Notes under the pieces: generated by a model
Told to the model about the DNA's origin: nothing
The model's input: the letters and a program-made list of their open reading frames with translations, nothing else
The model's database searches: none
Translations under genes and position numbers: made by a program
In this document: positions 26,010-46,992 of the stretch, piece after piece
How positions within the stretch are numbered: position 1 is the stretch's first letter
How the letters are laid out: every line of letters begins with the position of its first letter
Assembly (NCBI RefSeq): GCF_027946175.1
Contig: NZ_AP026671.1
Coordinates: forward strand, 992,001 to 1,056,000
Length of the DNA stretch: 64,000 nucleotides
Direction: 5' to 3'
From: Nitratiruptor tergarcus DSM 16512
Lineage (GTDB): Bacteria > Campylobacterota > Campylobacteria > Campylobacterales > Nitratiruptoraceae

Positions 26010-27969
26010 TCACTGAGCCATTTGCACTCTTTGTTTGTTCACTACTGTCCTCAGAAAAGAACTCTGTTTGCTTTTCTCTATCTTTTATTCTTACTCTATA
26101 CCTTTCATATCCGCTATCTTTCATTACATTTTCAACGTATTCTTGCAAATCTGGTTGTAACTGGAGCGGAGATTGGGATATAAAATGAAGATTGAGACGG
26201 TTTTGTGTCATAGATATATTGATATAGGTGTTTTCTATTTTTATACGTACAGCTCTTTGTTGCAAATTCTGCTCAAAAAACTCATGCTCGCCTTCAGTTT
26301 GCATAAACTCTTGCGCCAAATGACTACCGTCATCATGAAACATATCATGACTTTGACTATCATGCTTTCCTGAAGAGTTTTGCTGTAAAGTAGCCTGCTC
26401 TACGCCTCTTTTTTCACTATGGTTTGGAAGATCTTTATTTATTATTTGTTGCGTTCCATCATGATTATTATGCTTCAAATGGAGGATGACTTCTGCCAAG
26501 TCTCTATCAATATCAGTACTTGTCTGTAGCTGTGTAATAGGTTCTTTTGATCTATTTGCTATTTTTTCTTTATGTATTGTATGCAGCTTATTTATCTTTA
26601 TTTTTGATGACGACATAAGGGATATTTTCTTATCAAAATCTCTTTTTATTGCTGTTTTCATAAAAGGCAACTCATGAGATGATTCAAAAATGTTCTCATT
26701 TCTTTGCAATATATCGTAGAGTTGATCTTTATCTTTTTTAACATTACGCTTATTATCTATAAACATTGACTGAGTTTGAGAAAGTTGTGGAGCAATATTA
26801 CCTGCACTCTTTTGTATATTTTTTATTTTATTTAACTGCATCTCATCATTAGCAGATATTTCTCTTTTCCAATTTGTTGGTAGAGATTGGATAGTTTTTT
26901 GTTTTATAAATGCCTTCGATACAATGAGGCTTTTACCCTTTTTTTCCTCGGCAATTACTTTTGATTCAATTTGAGAAAGTTGTCGAGTATGTAGATCATG
27001 GATTTTCGTAGAGCTTTGGATATTTTCTCCACTATTTTGTGTATTTTTTATTTTATCATCAGAAAATATTTCTTTTTGCCAATTTGTTGCTAGAGACTGG
27101 ATGGTTTTTTGTTTTGCAAATACCTTTAATACAGTCTGGCTTTTACTCTTTTTTTGCTCGGCAACTGCTTTTGCTTTAACGGGCTTTTGTTGTTCTTGTA
27201 TTATATTGCCTGAAAAAGAGTTTTGAAGATTTTCTACATTTTGTAAAGGTAGATCTTTTTTTGACTTTTCCTGACTCTTTGCAAAAGTCTGCTTTTTCGT
27301 TTGTTTTGCTGCAGGTACACTATAGAAATTGGAAAGTGCAACTTCTCTTTTTATTGTATTTCTTTTATAAGATTTTACCTCTATAAATGGAGAAGCATGA
27401 TTTATAAATGTACTCTCAAACTGCTTTTTATCTTTTACAACGACAGTTTCATTGCCAGTATTATAAAAGTTATCTTTATTTGACTGCTGCAATTTTTTTG
27501 AAGCTTCTTGCTGTAAATCTTTATTATTTATTAGATTGGCATCTGTATGTGGGGTTATTTTTTGTGCAATACTATCCTCACGGATAAAAGCCCGTTTCTC
27601 ATCTCTTTGCACAATACGTGGCTTTTGCTCTTTTTCAAATCCTTGCAAGAACTTTTCATTGCCATATTGCTGATTATTTACAATATCGTTGTACTTTTTT
27701 AATATATCGTGTAGTTGTATTTTATTGGGAGAACCAAAATTATTTTGAGTAGTTGGAAATTTTTGATTGGATGATATAAAAATATTACGTAAAATGGGAC
27801 TTTTTTCATGCAGTACTTTTATGCTCTCTTGCCCATTTTTTGGCAGTTGCAGGATTTTTCCAAGAATTTGGGTAAAACTCTCTTTTTGAGATATAGCAGC
27901 ACCTTTTACTGCTACTCCCTGCTGTGAAGAGACAAAACCCTGTTTGAGCAAGAGATCAAAAATGTTCAT
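25996..27969 (-). CDS. fliK: Hook-length control protein FliK
   Basis: 657 residues, polar, Gln/Lys/Asn-rich and low in complexity until the C-terminal domain (about 565-640), which has the FliK export-switch pattern AVRIKIENTYINISMTQNRL and LQPDLQEYVENVMKDSGYER. FliK acts as a molecular ruler and triggers FlhB switching. The central region contains an internal duplication (see repeat). Overlaps fliA as ATGA. It is long for FliK (about 400-600), though the hook protein here is short. Confidence 0.85.
   Translation of the reverse strand: MNIFDLLLKQGFVSSQQGVAVKGAAISQKESFTQILGKILQLPKNGQESIKVLHEKSPILRNIFISSNQKFPTTQNNFGSPNKIQLHDILKKYNDIVNNQQYGNEKFLQGFEKEQKPRIVQRDEKRAFIREDSIAQKITPHTDANLINNKDLQQEASKKLQQSNKDNFYNTGNETVVVKDKKQFESTFINHASPFIEVKSYKRNTIKREVALSNFYSVPAAKQTKKQTFAKSQEKSKKDLPLQNVENLQNSFSGNIIQEQQKPVKAKAVAEQKKSKSQTVLKVFAKQKTIQSLATNWQKEIFSDDKIKNTQNSGENIQSSTKIHDLHTRQLSQIESKVIAEEKKGKSLIVSKAFIKQKTIQSLPTNWKREISANDEMQLNKIKNIQKSAGNIAPQLSQTQSMFIDNKRNVKKDKDQLYDILQRNENIFESSHELPFMKTAIKRDFDKKISLMSSSKIKINKLHTIHKEKIANRSKEPITQLQTSTDIDRDLAEVILHLKHNNHDGTQQIINKDLPNHSEKRGVEQATLQQNSSGKHDSQSHDMFHDDGSHLAQEFMQTEGEHEFFEQNLQQRAVRIKIENTYINISMTQNRLNLHFISQSPLQLQPDLQEYVENVMKDSGYERYRVRIKDREKQTEFFSEDSSEQTKSANGSVNVKV
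26854..27168 (-). repeat. Internal duplication in fliK
   Basis: Residues 268-302 and 338-372 of FliK are two copies exactly 70 residues apart, sharing KQKTIQSL-TNW at the core (KQKTIQSLATNW and KQKTIQSLPTNW). A third, more decayed start of the unit (QLSQTQSMFIDNK, about 395) follows the second copy's QLSQIESKVIAEE. DNA copies lie at 27064-27168 and 26854-26958. Confidence 0.85.
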
Positions 27970-28601
27970 GTCTGCTCCAGATCTTTTAAAATAGTTTTAA
28001 GTTTTTTAATAGCCTGCGTCTTTATCTGTGATACACGCGACTGGGAAATCCCCAACGTTTGCGCAATCTCTTTTGGCTCCCGCTCTTCAAAGAAGAACAT
28101 CTGCAATGTTCTCTTCTCCTTCTCGCTCAGCTGCTCCATAGCCATTGCAATCAAGTCACCAACTTGAGAAGAGATCGCCTGATCTTCAGGCCCTATATCA
28201 TCACTTATCATCACATCTATAAGGCGCATCGAATCATCACCAGATCCAATAGCCTTATCCATACTTATCATTATAGCTAAATTTGAAAGAGGAATATCTT
28301 TGCCCTCCTCTTTTTCTTTTTTTATCTTTTCACGCATACTACGAGGCATTATGTGAAGGCTACGCAAATAATCTAAAATTTCTCCTCTGATTTTTATATA
28401 CGCATACGTGGAAAATTGGGCTTTGCTCTCATCAAATTTGTCAATTGCTTTTATGAGACCTATAATGCCTGTGTTTACCAGCTCATCAAACTCTATACCC
28501 GCATCACGTGGCAGTTTAAAAAAAATTTTTGATGCCACTTTTTTTACTAAGGGGGTATTATCGAGTATAATCTGCTGCTTCTGCTCCACAGTAACTTTCA
28601 T
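27966..28601 (-). CDS. fliA: Flagellar sigma factor 28
   Basis: 211 residues. Region 2 is clear (EFDELVNTGIIGLIKAIDKF, FSTYAYIKIRGEILDYLRSL) and region 4 carries the helix-turn-helix EIAQTLGISQSRVSQIKTQA. It is about 25 residues shorter than enteric FliA, mostly in region 3. It would read the TAAA-N15-TCCGATAA promoters found before flgL, fliC and the chemotaxis genes. It sits between flhG and fliK with ATGA overlap to fliK. No anti-sigma gene (flgM) was found in the window. Confidence 0.94.
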   Translation of the reverse strand: MKVTVEQKQQIILDNTPLVKKVASKIFFKLPRDAGIEFDELVNTGIIGLIKAIDKFDESKAQFSTYAYIKIRGEILDYLRSLHIMPRSMREKIKKEKEEGKDIPLSNLAIMISMDKAIGSGDDSMRLIDVMISDDIGPEDQAISSQVGDLIAMAMEQLSEKEKRTLQMFFFEEREPKEIAQTLGISQSRVSQIKTQAIKKLKTILKDLEQT

Positions 28602-37182: not shown

Positions 37183-37689
37183 TTACCTCTCTAAAATCTT
37201 TAGTCTATCTTCTGGTTTTATAATGTGGGTTATTTTGATACCAAAGTTATTTTTTACTGTATAGAGCTCTCCTTTTGCAATGACTCTTCCATTTACTTTG
37301 AGATCTATTGGCTCATTGACATACCTATCAAGCTCTATAACACTGTTTGGATTGAGTTTGAGCACATCCTCTAAAGGCATCTGCGTTGATCCAATCTCCA
37401 CAGTAATTTCAAGTGGAATATCCAGTAAAAGTGAGAGCTTCGAATCAACACTCTTTTCATACTCACCAAACTCATCTAATGGTTTTGTATTCTCTTCATC
37501 ATTATAACTCATTTGAGCAAACTGCTGTGCCATAAGCTCGTCTGGACTTAACTCTTCACTCTTTTCATCAGCATTCTCTTCTTGTGTGCTCTCTTGGGCT
37601 TCCGGTTCCTCTATCTGTTCATCACCCATATCTGCAAACTGTTGTGCCATGAGCTCATCTGGACTCAGTTCTTTATTCTCTTCACTCAT
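37183..37689 (-). CDS. Second FliN-domain switch protein (FliN/FliY-like) with tandem CheY-docking-like peptides
   Basis: 168 residues. The C-terminal 80 form a SpoA/FliN domain (LSLLLDIPLEITVEIGSTQM, LNPNSVIELDRYVNEPIDLK, GELYTVKNNFGIKITHI). The first 85 residues are acidic and unstructured and hold two nearly identical peptides, ELSPDELMAQQFADM (7-21) and ELSPDELMAQQFAQM (46-60). These resemble the FliM N-terminal CheY-binding peptide (LSQEEIDALL here). There is no CheC/FliY phosphatase domain. It overlaps fliM by eight bases. With the minimal FliN (16569) it likely completes the C-ring base. Confidence 0.88.
   Translation of the reverse strand: MSEENKELSPDELMAQQFADMGDEQIEEPEAQESTQEENADEKSEELSPDELMAQQFAQMSYNDEENTKPLDEFGEYEKSVDSKLSLLLDIPLEITVEIGSTQMPLEDVLKLNPNSVIELDRYVNEPIDLKVNGRVIAKGELYTVKNNFGIKITHIIKPEDRLKILER
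37510..37671 (-). repeat. Tandem 15-residue motif in the FliN/Y N-terminus
   Basis: Copies at 37627-37671 and 37510-37554 encode ELSPDELMAQQFA-M, 39 codons apart, with 14 of 15 residues identical. The DNA copies differ at several third positions, so the protein sequence has been conserved while the DNA has drifted, which argues for selection and not a recent duplication. Confidence 0.88.
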
Positions 37690-38653
37690 TCTCTTCTTCC
37701 TTACTTACTTCCTCTTTTAGAAGTGCTGCATAACGATCTCCAACTTTACCCAGTCTACATACAAATTTCTCTTTATCTGCAATGCGGAGCTTTACTAGAT
37801 CCTCTTTACTTACATCTAACATCAACTCAGTACCTACTTCCCAACCTATGATTTCTCGCAAAAAATACTCTTTTTTTGCTAGCTCCAACGTTACCTCTAC
37901 ATCTGTTTGCAATAAAAGCTCATTGAGCTTCTCTTTCCACGCAGTATCTACCTCTCCTGAGAATTCGCTATATATCACATCTTTAATAGGCAAGAACATT
38001 CCTTGCGGATAGCAAAAATATATAGGAGCCTCATACCCATCAATATCAACAAGACACTCTGCAATAATAACCTTCTCATTTCCTGAAGTTATTTTTGCAA
38101 GAGCAGGATTGAGCTCAGTCGATCTCTTCTCTACTTCAATATTATATACTAAAGAAAATGTTTCTTGCAGTTTTTTAAGAGCCAAATCTATAAAATCTTT
38201 AATCACATAGGTCTCAAGTTTTGTAAACTCTCTTCCTTCTACTTTAAAAGGTTTAGCAGGTCCTCCAAACATCACACTGATTATTGTAAAAACAAGTCTT
38301 GAATCCACAACTAAAAGAGCTGTCTCTTTCAAAGGTTTCATCGTAAAGGTTGTATAACTTGAGGGCATTGGAATTTTAAACATAAATGTATTGAAGCGTG
38401 TAATGTATATGCTCTCTTTGGAGACCATATTTATTTTTGGAAGAAGTTTACGAATATCATCACGAAAACTCTTAGCCCATCGCTCATAAATGAGTTCTAA
38501 GCCAGGAAGTCCACCTTTTTTAATACTTTCAAGTTCACTAAAATCAAAAGGTCGGATATCTGATTGCTCTTGCGGCTCTTCTGTTGCACCAGCATCATCA
38601 CCGCCAAGTAGCGCATCAATCTCCTCTTGGGAGAGAAATTCTTGTTCAGACAT
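37682..38653 (-). CDS. fliM: Flagellar motor switch protein FliM
   Basis: 323 residues. N-terminal CheY-P docking peptide FLSQEEIDALLGGDD (5-19), the CheC-like middle domain (RWAKSFRDDIRKLLPKINMV, SVMFGGPAKPFKVEGREFTK) and a C-terminal SpoA domain (LTLELAKKEYFLREIIGWEV region). FliM receives the chemotaxis signal and changes rotor direction. A 153-base AT-rich gap with a candidate promoter (38721-38750) separates it from fliG. Confidence 0.95.
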   Translation of the reverse strand: MSEQEFLSQEEIDALLGGDDAGATEEPQEQSDIRPFDFSELESIKKGGLPGLELIYERWAKSFRDDIRKLLPKINMVSKESIYITRFNTFMFKIPMPSSYTTFTMKPLKETALLVVDSRLVFTIISVMFGGPAKPFKVEGREFTKLETYVIKDFIDLALKKLQETFSLVYNIEVEKRSTELNPALAKITSGNEKVIIAECLVDIDGYEAPIYFCYPQGMFLPIKDVIYSEFSGEVDTAWKEKLNELLLQTDVEVTLELAKKEYFLREIIGWEVGTELMLDVSKEDLVKLRIADKEKFVCRLGKVGDRYAALLKEEVSKEEENE

Positions 38654-39872: not shown

Positions 39873-39898
39873 TAAAAATCCTATGAAATTACCGATAA
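39873..39898 (+). promoter_or_regulatory. Sigma28 (FliA) promoter of the chemotaxis operon
   Basis: TAAA (39873-39876) and ACCGATAA (39891-39898) are 14 bases apart, one short of the ideal 15; the -10 box matches seven of eight consensus bases. It is 30 bases before the ATG at 39928. It shows that the first gene starts at 39928, not at the upstream ATG at 39883, which lies inside the promoter. Confidence 0.68.
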
Positions 39899-39927
39899 TC
39901 ACAAAAATCACCTGCAAAGGGATACGC

Positions 39928-40269
39928 ATGTCAGGATTGAATAATGAGCAAATAGCAATAGCAATAAATCATATCAATTTAGCAAAAGACGAGATTACTG
40001 AGTGTGCTAATACTCTCTATGCGACACTAGAGATGTTAGAAGAGCAGTGCGATAATCATGAGATGAAAGAGAGCATTATCAAAGCAATCGCTACATTGCA
40101 AATGCAAGACATTGTCACACAAAGGTTAACAAAACTAGAAGATTTTATGCAGCGTATCGATACTGTAACTTCTCTTCCTCAAGACAATGCATATCTTGAA
40201 GAGTTTGCGTGGGAAAATGAAGTGGATCAAAACGATATAGATGCAATGTTCAATGAAAGAAAAGGATAA
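39928..40269 (+). CDS. Short CheZ-like CheY-P phosphatase candidate
   Basis: 113 residues from ATG 39928, with AAAGG upstream. Two long helices (about 8-40 and 44-78) make a hairpin like the CheZ core. The second contains QMQDIVTQRLTKL, with D61 and Q65 in the DxxxQ spacing of CheZ catalytic residues. The C-terminus reads DQNDIDAMFNERKG (100-113), close to the FliM CheY-docking peptide (QAEIDALL type) and analogous to the CheY-binding tail of CheZ. About half the size of enteric CheZ. First gene of the che operon, three bases before cheA. Function is inferred from motifs and position. Confidence 0.72.
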   Translation: MSGLNNEQIAIAINHINLAKDEITECANTLYATLEMLEEQCDNHEMKESIIKAIATLQMQDIVTQRLTKLEDFMQRIDTVTSLPQDNAYLEEFAWENEVDQNDIDAMFNERKG

Positions 40270-40272
40270 TCT

Positions 40273-42321
40273 ATGCATATACAAATAACAGAAGATATGC
40301 AAGAGATTTTGGATGAGTTTATACAAGAAGCTGAAGAGATCCTAGAAAATCTCGATCAAGAGCTCATAGAGCTGGAAAATGATCCTACAAACAAAGAGTT
40401 ACTCAACCAGATTTTTCGGGGTATGCATACCCTTAAAGGTGGAGCAGGTTTTTTAGGCTTAGAAAGTATCATCAATCTTGCCCATATCATCGAAAGTATT
40501 TTCGACAAACTTCGCAACGATGAACTCCAGCTCAATTCAGATATGATGGATACGATTTTGGAAGGTATCGATATTATCAAAAACTCTATCGAAACACTCA
40601 AAACACAAAATGAGATTCCAGACACACAAGATATTCAAGGCATATTAGATAAACTTAATGATCTTCTTGAAGGAAAAGAAATAACATCAACACAAGAAGA
40701 ACCTGTAGAAGATGCAGCACCTCAAGCGCAAGAAGATATAACTCAATCACATGATGAAGACCAAGAAGTACCCGTAGCACAGATAGATAAAGAGATTGAA
40801 ATTGTGTTTCATGAAGATGTAGATCCAGATATCCAAAAACTCATCTTGCAATATCCTGATAAATCTATGATAGAGATCCTCGATGAACTCATATTGCTTC
40901 CACCAGAAGAGCGAGATATGGATCTCATCGCAAAACTTGATGAACTCATTCAGCAAGGCAAAGATGTAGAGGATCTCATTGTACAAAAAATTGTAAAAGA
41001 AAAAAAAGAGCTTGAAGAAAAAACAATTGAAGAAAAGTGCGAGGTTGTAGAAGCACCTCAAGAAGAAAAGAAGCAAAAAGCTCCAGCACCATCTCCCAAA
41101 GCGCCAGCCAAAAAGGCAAAAAAAGAGGAAGGGGAGACGATACGTATCGATATAGAGAGAGTCTCTACACTCATGAATCTGGTGGGAGAACTTGTTTTAG
41201 ATCGCAACCGTATTGTCAAACTTACATCCAGACTCAACACTACACAAGATGATACAGAAGTTATCGAAGAGCTTAGTGAAGCAATAGCTGGAATGAGTAG
41301 AAGCGTCTCAGATTTGCAAGAAGTGGTAATGAAACTGCGCATGCAGCCAGTAAAACGTATTTTTAGTAAATTTCCTCGCATCGTAAGAGATTTGGCAAAA
41401 AAAGTTGGCAAAAAAATCAATCTTGAACTCGAAGGTGAAGATACAGAAATCGATAGAAGTATTCTCAATCAGCTTGAAGATCCGCTCATTCACTTGGTAC
41501 GTAACTCTATCGATCACGGCATAGAGCCACCTGAAGAGCGTATCGCAAAAGGTAAACCAGAATATGGCACAATTTTGCTCTCGGCTCTTCAAGAGGGAGA
41601 TCGCATCATCGTATCAATTGAGGATGATGGACGTGGAATAGATCCAGATAAGGTCAAACAAAAAGCTATAGAAAAAGGGCTTATTAGACCTGAGCAAGCA
41701 GAACAGATGAGTGATAAAGAAGCGTTTGAACTCATTTTTATGCCTGGATTTTCTACAGTGGAAAAGGTAAGCGATTTGAGTGGACGTGGTGTAGGAATGG
41801 ATGTGGTAGCAAATGTGATTCACTCTTTGCGCGGAGCAATTGAAGTAGAGAGTGAAAAAGATGAGGGAACTAAAATCACTATGAAACTTCCACTTACAGT
41901 TGCTATCATACGTACCCTTATGGTGGGCGTTAATAATCGTATATTTGCTATACCACTTTTTAGCGTTGTTGAAATTATTAAATACCGTCCAGAAGATATC
42001 AAAGATGTTGGTATTTATAAATCACTTATGCTCAGAGACGAAGTCTATCTCTTTTTTCATCTCAATGAGCTTTTTGATATAGAAAGTAGCAGTGAAAACA
42101 AATTTGTCATTATCATCAACATTGGAGAAAAAAATATCGCTATTGCAGTAGATAATCTCTATGGAGAAGAAGAGATTGTTATTAAACCTCTTGGTGAGAT
42201 GCTCAAAGATGTAGAAGGTATTGCAGGAGCAACTATTACAGGTGATGGAAAAGTGGTACTGATACTTGATATTAAATCTCTTATCAACGATAAACGTAAC
42301 GATCTCATAGGAGTTATCTAA
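40273..42321 (+). CDS. cheA: Chemotaxis histidine kinase
   Basis: 682 residues. Hpt domain at about 1-105 with phospho-His H52 in MHTLKGGAGF; an acidic linker/P2 region (about 130-290); P3 dimerisation helix (VSTLMNLVGELVLDRNRI); ATPase with N box HLVRNSIDHGIE, DDGRGI and GRGVGMDVV; and a CheW-like P5 domain to the end (LPLTVAIIRTLMVGV...LDIKSLI). Unlike CheA of Campylobacter and Helicobacter, it has no C-terminal receiver domain. Good AAAGGA site. Overlaps cheW as TAATG. Confidence 0.95.
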   Translation: MHIQITEDMQEILDEFIQEAEEILENLDQELIELENDPTNKELLNQIFRGMHTLKGGAGFLGLESIINLAHIIESIFDKLRNDELQLNSDMMDTILEGIDIIKNSIETLKTQNEIPDTQDIQGILDKLNDLLEGKEITSTQEEPVEDAAPQAQEDITQSHDEDQEVPVAQIDKEIEIVFHEDVDPDIQKLILQYPDKSMIEILDELILLPPEERDMDLIAKLDELIQQGKDVEDLIVQKIVKEKKELEEKTIEEKCEVVEAPQEEKKQKAPAPSPKAPAKKAKKEEGETIRIDIERVSTLMNLVGELVLDRNRIVKLTSRLNTTQDDTEVIEELSEAIAGMSRSVSDLQEVVMKLRMQPVKRIFSKFPRIVRDLAKKVGKKINLELEGEDTEIDRSILNQLEDPLIHLVRNSIDHGIEPPEERIAKGKPEYGTILLSALQEGDRIIVSIEDDGRGIDPDKVKQKAIEKGLIRPEQAEQMSDKEAFELIFMPGFSTVEKVSDLSGRGVGMDVVANVIHSLRGAIEVESEKDEGTKITMKLPLTVAIIRTLMVGVNNRIFAIPLFSVVEIIKYRPEDIKDVGIYKSLMLRDEVYLFFHLNELFDIESSSENKFVIIINIGEKNIAIAVDNLYGEEEIVIKPLGEMLKDVEGIAGATITGDGKVVLILDIKSLINDKRNDLIGVI

Positions 42322-42830
42322 TGAACGACATTGAAGTATTAGGTCTTAGTGAAACAATAGAAGAAGATCTTAAAGAAGAGCAGCGAGTTATTGCTTTTTT
42401 ACTTAATAAGGAACTTATTGGCATTGATATCAAAAACATTATCAAAATTACAAAGCGTCTTGATATAACTCCTGTACCTAAAACACCAGAGCATATATTA
42501 GGAGTGATGAATCTGCGTGGCAATATTGTACCAGTAGTCAATGTAAAGCAGATGCTGGGGCTTCCTCACGACAAAAAAGAGGAACAAGAATTTATCCTTA
42601 TTATCGATTCAGCTATTGGCAATATCGGACTTATGATTGATCAAGTGGTAGGCGCTATAACAATAGATGATGAAGAGATACTCCCAGCTCCTATCAACTC
42701 TATCGGGATTGATGCTAAATATATAACTGGAGTGGTCGTTACTGATGAAGAGGTAGGTGATAAAAACCTTCTCATCCTTCTTGATATTGAAAAACTGTTT
42801 CATAAATCTGACCAAGAAAACGAAGAATAA
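42321..42830 (+). CDS. cheW: Chemotaxis coupling protein CheW
   Basis: 169 residues, a single CheW domain: RVIAFLLNKELIGIDIKNII, VPKTPEHILGVMNLRGNIVP, VVNVKQMLGLP. It couples chemoreceptors to CheA. An N-terminal extension of about 20 residues (DIEVLGLSETIEEDLKEEQ) precedes the domain. AGGAG upstream; start overlaps the cheA stop. Confidence 0.95.
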   Translation: MNDIEVLGLSETIEEDLKEEQRVIAFLLNKELIGIDIKNIIKITKRLDITPVPKTPEHILGVMNLRGNIVPVVNVKQMLGLPHDKKEEQEFILIIDSAIGNIGLMIDQVVGAITIDDEEILPAPINSIGIDAKYITGVVVTDEEVGDKNLLILLDIEKLFHKSDQENEE

Positions 42831-42839
42831 GAGGCTGCC

Positions 42840-43799
42840 ATGAGAAAAAAAGAGTATCTACCTAAAATTTTGGAGACGGGAGCAAATGAACTTGAAGTTA
42901 TAGATTTTCGCATGTTTGAAGAACTCGAAGATGGGAATGTTTATGAGTGGGTTTTAGGTGTCAACGTCGCCAAAGTCAAAGAGGTAATCCAGCGCCCCAC
43001 CAATATATTTCGCTCTCCCGGTATGCCGCCTGAAGTAGAAGGACTAGCAAAAATCCGTGAAGATGTCATACCAATCGTAAATCTGGAAAAGTGGATGAAA
43101 ATAAAAGCTCCTGCTGACAAAGAGAGCAAATATGCTATAGTTATGGAGTTTTTACGTGAGATTATAGGTATTTTAGTGCATGAAGCTAAAAGAATTCGCC
43201 GCATCAAGTGGACAGATATTAAAAAACCCCCAGCTAGCGTAGATGAAAAACTGGGAGGAAAAGTTGTAGGGGTAATAGAAATAGAAGATAACCAACTCCT
43301 TCTTTTATTAGATTTTGAAGGAATTTTGGATGAACTTGGCATGATAAAAGTTTTCAATGTAGAAGATAAAGATGAGTATGGAAAGAGTGATACATCTTAC
43401 AATATACTGATTCTCGATGACAGTCCAGTTGCAAGAAAAATTATTCGTAAAATTCTTACACAAGATGGACATAATGTTTATGAAGTTGAAAGCGGAATTG
43501 ATGGCCTCAAATACCTTGAATCACTTAAAGAGGAAGCTCAAAAAGAGGGAAAAGATATTACAGACAAAATACAACTCATAATTAGTGATATTGAGATGCC
43601 AGGAATGGATGGGCTGACATTTACAAAAAGAGTAAAAGAAGATCCAGTATTGTCAAAAATTCCTGTAGTTATCAATACATCACTATCTGATAAAGCAACA
43701 GTTGATAAAACAAGATTTGTCAATGCAGATGCACATCTTGTAAAATTTGATACAAAAGATCTTTTACATATAGTTCATGAATATGCAATAAAAAAATAG
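42840..43799 (+). CDS. cheV: CheV: CheW domain fused to a receiver domain
   Basis: 319 residues. CheW-like domain at about 35-175 (EWVLGVNVAKVKEVIQRPTN, EGLAKIREDVIPIVNLEKWM) and a receiver at about 195-319 with LILDDSPVARK, phospho-acceptor in LIISDIEMPGMDG, and conserved T/K positions (INTSLS, LVKF). CheV couples receptors to CheA and tunes them by phosphorylation, which may replace the receiver missing from CheA here. AGAGG upstream. Confidence 0.94.
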   Translation: MRKKEYLPKILETGANELEVIDFRMFEELEDGNVYEWVLGVNVAKVKEVIQRPTNIFRSPGMPPEVEGLAKIREDVIPIVNLEKWMKIKAPADKESKYAIVMEFLREIIGILVHEAKRIRRIKWTDIKKPPASVDEKLGGKVVGVIEIEDNQLLLLLDFEGILDELGMIKVFNVEDKDEYGKSDTSYNILILDDSPVARKIIRKILTQDGHNVYEVESGIDGLKYLESLKEEAQKEGKDITDKIQLIISDIEMPGMDGLTFTKRVKEDPVLSKIPVVINTSLSDKATVDKTRFVNADAHLVKFDTKDLLHIVHEYAIKK

Positions 43800-43808
43800 G
43801 GAGGATAA

Positions 43809-44204
43809 ATGGCATTACCAGATAAAAACATAAGAATTTTAGTAGTAGATGATGCACCTATGATTCGCAGAATTCTCAAAAACCTTCTCAAAGAGATGGG
43901 ATTTAGCAATATTGATGAAGCAGAAGATGGTATGGTAGCACTCCAAAAACTTCGTAGCCAAAAATACGATTTTGTTATTACTGATTGGAATATGCCAAAT
44001 CTTACAGGCATTGAGCTTGTTCAAGAGATTAGAAAAGATCCCAATCTCAAATCTTTACCGATAATGATGGTTACAGCAGAAGCAAAAAAAGAAAATATCA
44101 TACTAGCCCTTAAAAGCGGAGTCAATAACTATATCGTCAAACCTTTCACTCCAGAAAATGTCAAAGCTAAAATCGAGGCAATCTTTTCGGCCAAAAAAAA
44201 GTAA
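43809..44204 (+). CDS. cheY: Chemotaxis response regulator CheY
   Basis: 131 residues, a lone receiver: ILVVDDAPMIRRILKNLL, phospho-acceptor in FVITDWNMPNLTG, switch Thr in MMVTAEA and Lys in YIVKPFTPE. Phospho-CheY binds the docking peptides of FliM and probably FliN/Y and reverses the motor. Strong GGGAGGA ribosome site. Confidence 0.95.
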   Translation: MALPDKNIRILVVDDAPMIRRILKNLLKEMGFSNIDEAEDGMVALQKLRSQKYDFVITDWNMPNLTGIELVQEIRKDPNLKSLPIMMVTAEAKKENIILALKSGVNNYIVKPFTPENVKAKIEAIFSAKKK

Positions 44205-44216
44205 CAGGAGCACAAA

Positions 44217-45536
44217 ATGAGCAAAAAAGAGCTAAAACTAGAAAATGTAGATGAATGCAGAGAAGATCTCGAAACTTGTATAAGAGAAAAAGAGACGATT
44301 TTGAAAAATGGAAAAAGACAATGGATAAGAAGTGGTATCAATTTAAGCGAAGGTATCTTTAATGCAAGTTTAGTTGCAACTGGAATCTATAATTTTAAAA
44401 ACCGTTTTTCAAAGTTTAACGATACGTTCGACAAAATCACAAGTACAAGCGAAGAGAGTCTCAAAATCACTGATACTATTATGCATAGTATTTCTGAGAT
44501 AGAGCAGGCACAGAAAGATACAACCACTGAAATTGAAAATGGCGAAAATATCTTAAATAAAACAAACCAAGATATCTTAGAGTCTGTTAAAGCTATGGAC
44601 AATCTTACAAAAACCACAGAAGAACTCAAAAGAAAAATCAGTGGTATCGACCATGTGCTTAATGTCATCTTAGAAATCACTGAACAAACAAACCTCCTTG
44701 CACTCAACGCAGCAATCGAAGCAGCCCGAGCTGGAGAAGTAGGACGTGGATTTGCAGTTGTAGCTGATGAAGTAAGAAAACTAGCTGAAAAGACAAGCAA
44801 AAGTGCAAGTGAGATACGTGAAGTAACAATTTCAGTTATGGATGAGATGGATAATACATCAAAAGTGGTTGGAAACGCAAAAACAATTGTAGAAGATAGT
44901 GCAGAAGGTGCAAGTAATGTACTAAAAACCTTCCGTAAAATAAAAGAGACAAGTAATAGTGTAACGCATCTTATTCAACGCCAAATCCAATATACTAACC
45001 AACAAAAAGAGCATATCTATACCTTTAATGATGAAATTTTAAAACTTAATGAAGATCTCAAACAGGCTCAAGATTTAGCTCATATAACTGGACTCCGCAT
45101 CTTCTCAACAATCGATTTCATGAATGAAGGAATTGAAAAGTGTGAAGTAAATGAAAAAGATGAGGTGATCACAAAACTTTTTGATGCAATTAAAACACAT
45201 TCAGTCTATATTATGAATGTTGCGAAAGTTCTTGAAGGTTATGAAAATATTTCTCTTCAAGATTTTACATCTTGCAATTTTGGTAGATGGTTCTATTCTG
45301 GAGAGGCTTTTAAAGCATTAAAGCCATACGGTGATGAGGTAATAGCGCTCCTTGAAGGCACCGAAGATCTTCATAAAAAAGTACATAATCTTGCTTTTGA
45401 ATTAATAAGGCTACAAAAAGAGGGTAGAAAAAATGAAGTTTTTGAAAAAATTGAAGAGCTTGCAGACACAGCCAATGCAATTGTAAAAGAACTAACAAAA
45501 ATAGTAGCAATTATTTCTGCAAAAGAGCTCGAATAA
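44217..45536 (+). CDS. Cytoplasmic chemoreceptor with C-terminal zinc-binding CZB domain
   Basis: 439 residues without a membrane segment. The signalling tip is complete ([20 protein letters not shown] then [20 protein letters not shown]). The C-terminal 130 residues are a CZB domain with the four-ligand pattern: H in [15 protein letters not shown] in [14 protein letters not shown], and two H in [18 protein letters not shown]. This layout is that of TlpD of Helicobacter, which senses oxidants or zinc status in the cytoplasm. Fifth gene of the che operon, GGAG upstream. Confidence 0.92.
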
Positions 45537-45546
45537 AGGCTGTAAA

Positions 45547-46992
45547 ATGACATATAAAAATATTTATAATAAAAGAGGGATTGAGCCCAAAAATAGCGAA
45601 TCCCCTTTTGCCCTTGATGAGCTATTCTTTTCAATTACTGATCCAAAAGGTATAATCCTTACAGGAAACGATGTTTTTCAAGAAGTTTCAAAGTTTGATA
45701 GAGATGAACTCATTGGTAAACCACACAATATCATACGTCATCCAGATATGCCACGAGCTATCTTTAAAGCTGTGTGGGATACTATCAAAGCAGGAAAACC
45801 TTTTGTAGGGTACGTAAAAAATATGGCAAAAGATGGCAGCTACTACTGGGTCTTAGCTGCAATTTATCCTGTTGTAAATGAGGAAGGAGAAATAGAGAAA
45901 TATATCTCCATTCGTCTTAAGCCCTCTTCCAAGATATTTGATCTTATCCCCAATCTTTACAAAGAGATTTTAGAAGTTGAACTCAAAAACGATATGGAGA
46001 GTGCACACGCCTTTTTAATGGAAAAACTCCATGCACTTGGTTTTGAAACATATGAAGATTTTTCAAAAAGAGCATTTTTTGAAGAGATTGAAAGTAGAGA
46101 GAAACTTCTTGATAATCAAAATAACGTCTCTTGTCAAACAGATTTAACACAAGTTAATAATAAAAATATTGGATTTATTGATTTACTATGTAATCTCCAA
46201 ACAATCTTTTTCCGTCTCAACCGCTACTTTAATGAGATTTTTGGAAAAGTAAATCTTTTTTTAAATCTCAATGAGGAACTCAACAAAAAAAGTAAGTTTA
46301 TTTATGAACTGGCAGAAGATATCCGTCTACTCTCACTCAATGCTTCAATAGAGAGCTATAAAATAAAAAAGGATGGAGTCTCTTTCTCTACACTCTCACA
46401 TGAGATGCGAAAAAATGCTGAACTAAGCGAACGTAAGATTTTGCAACTTAGTAAAATCATAGAAAATACAAAAAAAGATATCGAAGATATAGGCTTTAAT
46501 ATTCTCTCCTCTAAACTCATTATTGAGATGATTACCTTCTTTATCAAAGAGATGATCCAAAACCTCTCACAAGCCTCACTCAGCCATGAAAAACAGCAAG
46601 AAGTTATCAATAACATTAACGAACTCTTTGAGCTTTTGCGAATATATGCAAAACACTTAGCAATAAATGTGGATAAATCTAAAAGTCAACTGCGTTCAAT
46701 GTATTACAACATTCAAGAGCTCAATGTCCTCATCAATAGGCTCGACTTTATCCACATCAATGGTCTTATTGAATCTGCTCATACTAAAGAGGAAGGCGGA
46801 GGATTTACAATTATATTTTCACAAATGCTCAAACTCATAGAGGCAGCTAAAAGCGAAATAATAAATTTGGAAACAAGTATTTATAGCGCTTCAGAAGAGA
46901 ATCAAAACGTCAATCTTATTACGCAAATTGCTCAAAGAAAGATAATGAAGTTACAAAAGGAGTATGGTGCAGTTTTAAGCTCTTATATCTAG
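45547..46992 (+). CDS. PAS protein with two degenerate chemoreceptor signalling tips
   Basis: 481 residues. An Aer-type PAS domain fills about 20-130 (GIILTGNDVFQEVSKFDRDE, IRHPDMPRAIFKAVWDTIKA, DGSYYWVLAAIYPV). No membrane segment. Two tip-like hairpins follow: LLSLNASIESYKIKKDGVSF (261-280) and FIHINGLIESAHTKEEGGGF (401-420), exactly 140 residues apart and matching the LNAAIEAA...GxGF tip of receptors loosely. The CheA/CheW contact residues are poorly kept. It may be an energy-taxis sensor relative of Aer/CetB or a modified receptor. Last gene of the che operon. Confidence 0.78.
   Translation: MTYKNIYNKRGIEPKNSESPFALDELFFSITDPKGIILTGNDVFQEVSKFDRDELIGKPHNIIRHPDMPRAIFKAVWDTIKAGKPFVGYVKNMAKDGSYYWVLAAIYPVVNEEGEIEKYISIRLKPSSKIFDLIPNLYKEILEVELKNDMESAHAFLMEKLHALGFETYEDFSKRAFFEEIESREKLLDNQNNVSCQTDLTQVNNKNIGFIDLLCNLQTIFFRLNRYFNEIFGKVNLFLNLNEELNKKSKFIYELAEDIRLLSLNASIESYKIKKDGVSFSTLSHEMRKNAELSERKILQLSKIIENTKKDIEDIGFNILSSKLIIEMITFFIKEMIQNLSQASLSHEKQQEVINNINELFELLRIYAKHLAINVDKSKSQLRSMYYNIQELNVLINRLDFIHINGLIESAHTKEEGGGFTIIFSQMLKLIEAAKSEIINLETSIYSASEENQNVNLITQIAQRKIMKLQKEYGAVLSSYI

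Follow-up and report, generated by a model that had tools for sequence, protein, structure and literature searches.

A 113-residue CheZ-like protein as the probable CheY-P phosphatase of the Nitratiruptor chemotaxis operon

In the analysed stretch of DNA from the vent bacterium Nitratiruptor tergarcus (64,000 nucleotides, hereafter the window), the first gene of the chemotaxis operon very probably codes for the phosphatase that acts on CheY-P in this system, namely a CheZ cut down to its two working parts, the catalytic hairpin and the CheY-docking tail. CheZ is the enzyme that terminates the CheY-P swimming signal. Observed here are the motifs of both parts and their conservation, a profile relationship to known CheZ proteins, the operon with its promoter and the absence of other known phosphatases. 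The product would be a size-minimal form of a known kind of enzyme with no new mechanism, left unnamed by current Pfam and NCBIfam models, and the running text of the literature searched nowhere describes the gene as a phosphatase.

The gene, referred to below as minimal cheZ, was found where the initial annotation had placed it, as an open reading frame of 113 residues at positions 39928-40269 of the forward strand and at the head of the operon; besides the frame itself, its assignment draws on conservation among homologs and on profile matches. An alternative in-frame ATG at 39883 would give a product of 128 residues, and the start at 39928 is favoured since the upstream codon falls inside a conserved promoter element, the predicted ribosome binding site AAAGGG (39916-39921, +) precedes the downstream one, and the starts of homologs agree with it; AAAGG or AAAAGGG stands at the same place in nearly all of them. 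The putative sigma-28 (FliA)-type promoter of the che operon, TAAA-N-ACCGATAAT (39873-39899, +), is conserved upstream of most homologs in the form of an element resembling TTAAA-N-[A/T]CCGATAAT, located at most about 60 nt 5' of the start. The pattern TAAAN{13,17}CCGATA occurs five times in the window versus 0.5 expected, and fliA is encoded in the same window (27966-28601).

Gene order in the operon is cheZ-cheA-cheW-cheV-cheY-MCP(CZB)-PAS/MCP, all on the forward strand. cheA (40273-42321) starts 3 nt downstream of the end of minimal cheZ and encodes Hpt, H-kinase_dim, HATPase and CheW domains with no receiver domain detected; it is followed by cheW (42321-42830, assigned by domain match), cheV (42840-43799, CheW and Response_reg domains) and cheY (43809-44204), the proposed substrate. 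Domain matches further assign a cytoplasmic chemoreceptor with a C-terminal CZB domain (44217-45536) and a protein combining a PAS domain with a short MCP signalling region (45547-46992). Sequence identity between the operon CheY and its E. coli counterpart is 54%, and D57, W58, N59, T87, K91, K92, Y106, K109 and K119 are conserved, so that all docking and active-site residues that were checked are kept.

Homologs of the window protein were found in 22 of 60 related genomes searched, including Nitratiruptor (named in L025 and L028) and two sister genera. Twenty loci encoding 107-171 residues were extracted, and the start of cheA lies within a few bases downstream of minimal cheZ in each of them; leaving out the near-identical L011, 19 rows constitute alignment A1, with 28-59% identity. 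The columns invariant in A1 are A12, H15, E22, D61, I62, Q65, R66, F73, F93, W95, E98, Q101 and D105; conservation down to 28% identity thus covers the catalytic pair as well as the tail. The predicted catalytic motif D61xxxQ65 (40108-40122, +; D61 is GAC at 40108-40110 and Q65 is CAA at 40120-40122) aligns with DxxxQ of the HP0170-type CheZ and with D143/Q147 of E. coli CheZ, which bears out the CheZ catalytic spacing ascribed to this pair from the sequence, and the conservation in orthologs proposed as a check on it holds in all 19 homologs. With 9 Asp and 8 Gln among 113 residues, about 0.6 DxxxQ are expected from composition (109 x 9/113 x 8/112); the motif alone would be weak evidence, and it is its conservation that exceeds chance. 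The surroundings of D61 (Q58, Q60, I62 and R66) are invariant or nearly so as well, and of the AXXF(Y)Q motif (PMC7750401) F, M or L at D-2 and Q at D-1 (17/19) are retained while Ala at D-5 is not conserved. One sister-genus homolog (L020) has a 171-residue form that is extended by 36 residues at the N terminus and lengthened in the hairpin loop and the linker and, judged from its sequence, is an intermediate between minimal and normal CheZ.

AlphaFold2 modelling of the monomer from six sequences (mean pLDDT 79, pTM 0.63, low in the tail) places helices 7-40 and 44-80 in a hairpin, the second helix, which carries the catalytic Asp and Gln in DxxxQ spacing, being kinked at 58-59. This hairpin (residues 7-80; 39946-40167, +; pLDDT 86-92 over residues 11-80 in 10-residue blocks), which the initial annotation had anticipated, is followed by short helices 87-96 and 101-109, the latter with low confidence, and the same layout is predicted for a homolog of 41% identity. 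In the model this is the bundle-linker-tail order of CheZ, the hairpin measuring about 74 residues versus 134 in E. coli CheZ (boundaries from PMC7750401). Foldseek with the model gave no PDB match at E<=0.001 and generic hairpins only, as expected because a plain hairpin cannot be discriminated, and a profile search of PDB sequences returned only generic coiled coils. A small helical hairpin in a flagellar neighbourhood, with weak sub-threshold matches to FlgN (E 0.0096), FliJ and FliS_cochap, may also suggest a flagellar export chaperone or another flagellar coiled-coil protein of FlgN/FliJ/FliS type. We regard this as scarcely credible, since these matches are scattered, with no more than two members apiece, whereas CheZ is matched more often than any other Pfam family, the protein has an invariant DxxxQ and a CheZ-like tail, and its gene always adjoins cheA and not a chaperone substrate.

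The predicted C-terminal CheY-docking peptide QNDIDAMFNE (Q101-E110; 40228-40257, +) has invariant Q101 and D105 and aligns with C-terminal peptides of CheZ, so that at the level of sequence the CheY-binding C terminus characteristic of CheZ is present. The corresponding tail reads QDQVDDLLDSLGF in E. coli CheZ and QNDVDDILKSYGL, QENVDDILKSYGL and QKDVDDILKEFGI in the sister genera, where it almost matches proteobacterial CheZ tails (VDDILKSYGL versus VDDLLDSLGF of E. coli). Thus, the peptide noticed initially is indeed at its proposed place and is CheZ-like, but its description as FliM-type needs to be amended: the tail is nearer to CheZ than to the FliM peptide, and "CheZ tail" is the better name since the sister-genus tails are nearer to that of E. 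coli CheZ. The FliM peptide QAEIDALLNG used for that comparison is E. coli-like, and FliM of the source genome itself (fliM at 37682-38653, -) has the putative N-terminal CheY-binding peptide FLSQEEIDALLGG. FliM shares a QxxIDALL-type CheY-binding peptide with minimal CheZ, but there it forms the N-terminal end of a SpoA switch protein, whereas in minimal CheZ it closes a CheZ hairpin at the C terminus; no Pfam match to the SpoA switch domain of FliM/FliN was found in the minimal CheZ protein. Just before the tail lies the conserved linker FAWENEV (F93-V99; 40204-40224, +), in which F93, W95 and E98 are invariant and which is more constant than the tail itself; DNA coding for FAWENE occurs once in the source genome, within minimal cheZ, and at most once in each of seven related genomes.

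This pattern, with the tail and the preceding FAWENEV conserved at least as strongly as the hairpin, might be read as that of a non-catalytic adaptor or FliM competitor whose tail binds CheY and holds CheY-P near CheA with no phosphatase activity. We consider such a role very improbable, since docking alone leaves unexplained why D61 and Q65, together with Q58, Q60, I62 and R66, are invariant or nearly so, and no further member of the known CheY phosphatase families is encoded. The latter follows from a search of 120 genomes of the order with A3, a profile of the long Campylobacterota CheZ (HP0170/Cj0700 type, itself recognized as NF041271 at 3.7e-61), and from a CheA search over the same set. 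CheA is present in all 11 genomes of the family to which the window belongs and a separate long CheZ in none of them (0/11), versus 88 of the order's 92 remaining genomes with CheA (Fisher p 7e-12, although the family is one clade and represents one evolutionary event, not 11). Weak A3 matches in four genomes (G004, G005, G008 and G018) coincide with the short gene itself, and a further one, in G017 (E 0.017), lies at another place in the genome and is insignificant. Profiles of CheX and CheC gave no match in 8/8 family genomes, no CheC/CheX domain was matched in the minimal CheZ protein, and PF04344 found nothing in the source genome. Given that the CheY residues are kept and that long CheZ, CheX and CheC were not found, the system has a standard CheY without another known phosphatase; with cheA adjoining in every member, the genomic setting fits the role of minimal CheZ as the CheY phosphatase. 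Outside the family, four CheA-bearing genomes (G028, G077, G089 and G094) have no match to the long CheZ profile; some of them may hold a divergent CheZ, because a further genome (G189) of the genus of G077 and G089 has a weak long-CheZ match in a 186-residue frame.

Assignment to the CheZ family had to be made through intermediates. Compared alone with Pfam and NCBIfam, the window protein matched no CheZ model and nothing meaningful, and its single-sequence HMM and PDB searches gave noise only; the HMM search suggested by the initial annotation thus failed for the single protein and succeeded for its family. Among the 19 members, five match PF04344 CheZ below the cut-off (best E 1.9e-5) and three match NF041271 CheZ (best E 2.6e-4), also below the cut-off; the 171-residue form aligns to positions 107-202 of the 203 of PF04344 with 25.9 bits versus the required 30.7. 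No member seen passes the curated cut-off of either model, which is a matter of detection threshold and not a biological feature. Comparison of A1 with A3 gave a probability of 88.7 and a score of 42.8 with DxxxQ and the tail both in register (best of 60 column-shuffled controls, 18.7), and comparison with A4, the short CheZ-like set from family f9 (probably Arcobacteraceae), a probability of 94.7 and a score of 47.1 (best shuffled control, 17.8). The match to the HP0170-type family supports the original proposal of a half-size CheZ with catalytic and docking parts packed together. Direct hhalign comparison with six proteobacterial CheZs (A5) was not significant (probability 2.9, score 20.7, with one of 60 shuffles higher at 21.7), though in the expected register, D61 with D143, Q65 with Q147 and tail with tail; CheZ membership therefore rests on the intermediates. 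This lack of significant direct similarity, and the repeated origin of response regulator phosphatases with an inserted amide residue (CheZ, CheX and Rap; PMC3035606), would suit an independent acquisition of the CheZ catalytic and docking motifs by an unrelated hairpin, CheZ-like in function but not homologous. Such convergence is in our estimate very improbable: shuffled controls fall far short of the profile similarity to the HP0170-type and to the short Arcobacter-type CheZ, the HP0170-type match spans both parts in order, and the 171-residue form bridges to Pfam CheZ. Two hits outside the family were discarded, an Azospirillum match with E=6 in tblastn of the window protein against plasmids, where the matches were noise, and a Treponema locus (L030) from a contig scan with exact peptides of the window protein, which is a chance match inside an unrelated large membrane protein.

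As a reduced CheZ, the protein would most likely dephosphorylate CheY-P by the normal mechanism, in which an acidic residue pairs with the active-site lysine of the receiver and a glutamine orients water on the phospho-aspartate (PMC3035606). By analogy with CheZ, from which dimer, docking and catalysis are all inferred here, a four-helix bundle would form from two hairpins, QNDIDAMF as the C-terminal helix would dock on the surface of CheY-P also used by FliM, D61 would pair with the lysine of the CheY active site and Q65 would position the attacking water on the phospho-aspartate. For the HP0170-type CheZ, phosphatase activity was tested in H. pylori; this protein depends on the corresponding residues D189 and Q193 and on its last 12 residues, whereas it can do without the first 39 (PMC11237671). 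E. coli CheZ (214 residues) consists of N-terminal helix 1-34, bundle 35-168, linker 169-199 and tail helix 199-214, and the tip of its hairpin, D(D/E)WF with aromatic residues 97 and 98, binds CheA-short (PMC7750401). Minimal CheZ has instead only hairpin 7-80, linker and tail: both the N-terminal helix and the D(D/E)WF tip are absent from its sequence, and measured against E. coli CheZ the losses would comprise the N-terminal helix, about half of the hairpin on its outer side together with this tip, and half of the linker. By the same analogy, it is what remains when the dispensable parts of CheZ are removed.

E. coli CheZ (PF04344; structure 1KMI) has D143/Q147 and a tail aligned with those of minimal CheZ, and the cheZ-cheA order is also found in a plasmid-borne Photobacterium che cluster. 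CheZ of the HP0170/Cj0700 type (NF041271) likewise has DxxxQ in a helix, a QxQD context and a C-terminal acidic-hydrophobic docking peptide, but it comprises about 220-300 residues with an N-terminal MTQEELDALM and a longer hairpin, whereas the 113 residues of minimal CheZ have no N-terminal peptide; its gene lies away from cheA, beside trhP (PMC9321776), while minimal cheZ is directly upstream of cheA. In the long Campylobacterota CheZ of A3 (L048, L049, L053 and L057) FliM-like peptides are seen at either end, MTQEELDALM N-terminally and one of the SQEEIEELI type C-terminally, which possibly gives two CheY-docking sites per subunit. Azorhizobium caulinodans CheZ, with a shortened four-helix bundle lacking D(D/E)WF, is a precedent, though with 236 residues and a longer N-terminal helix (PMC7750401); this, together with the dispensable N-terminal 39 residues of the H. 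pylori protein (PMC11237671), indicates that N-terminal helix and tip are not required for a CheZ.

The short CheZ-like proteins of family f9 (L044-L047 and L056) resemble minimal CheZ in size (about 112-120 residues), DxxxQ hairpin and docking-like C-terminal peptide; unlike it, they lack FAWENEV, and their gene, located between truD-like and MCP genes with cheA not adjoining, is a second copy besides a long CheZ (296-385-residue frame). Spo0E, YisI and YnzD are tiny hairpin proteins with a phosphatase role (PMC3035606) towards a response regulator. They act on Spo0A-P with an SQELD motif, which is absent from the minimal CheZ sequence, and unlike minimal CheZ they are not known to have a CheZ-type DxxxQ or a docking tail. 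Helical proteins of about 120 residues, likewise DxxxQ hairpins, with LQHQDILTQQLN (LQYQDIITQQLS in L052) and tails such as EDLSELF were also seen in other families (L051, L052, L055 and L058), and the neighbour of L051 and L055 resembles a cmoB-type methyltransferase gene, not che genes.

As the CheA-short-binding tip is missing, placement of minimal CheZ, if there is any, must work differently, and FAWENEV is, as a speculation, a candidate for this role. A wider and tentative proposal, which we hold possible but would not favour, is that this is the smallest natural CheZ, produced by a lineage that cut off the CheA-recruiting tip and the N-terminal helix and evolved FAWENEV for the lost role, e.g., as an anchor to CheA or the array or as a second contact with CheY-P, thereby combining catalysis, docking and placement in 113 residues. 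The linker offers a concrete new target for mutation, and the protein shows how small a CheZ can be and represents a compact scaffold for separating catalysis from docking and localisation.

In Nitratiruptor, according to PMC9321776, the native F3 chemotaxis and flagella were replaced by an F14 set from Aquificota, and atypical G+C of its chemotaxis/flagella cluster was noted in an earlier genome paper (PMC2147049). A missing long CheZ and a short gene in the same operon fit this replacement. Minimal CheZ fills a gap, since Nitratiruptor-type F14 chemotaxis would otherwise be without a recognisable way to end the CheY-P signal. As short forms escape the CheZ models of Pfam and NCBIfam, the number of genomes recorded as "without CheZ" is overestimated. 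In the same window, a FliN-like protein of 168 residues (37183-37689, -) carries an N-terminal tandem repeat ELSPDELMAQQFA-[DQ]M, which resembles a doubled CheY-docking peptide of the FliM/FliY type.
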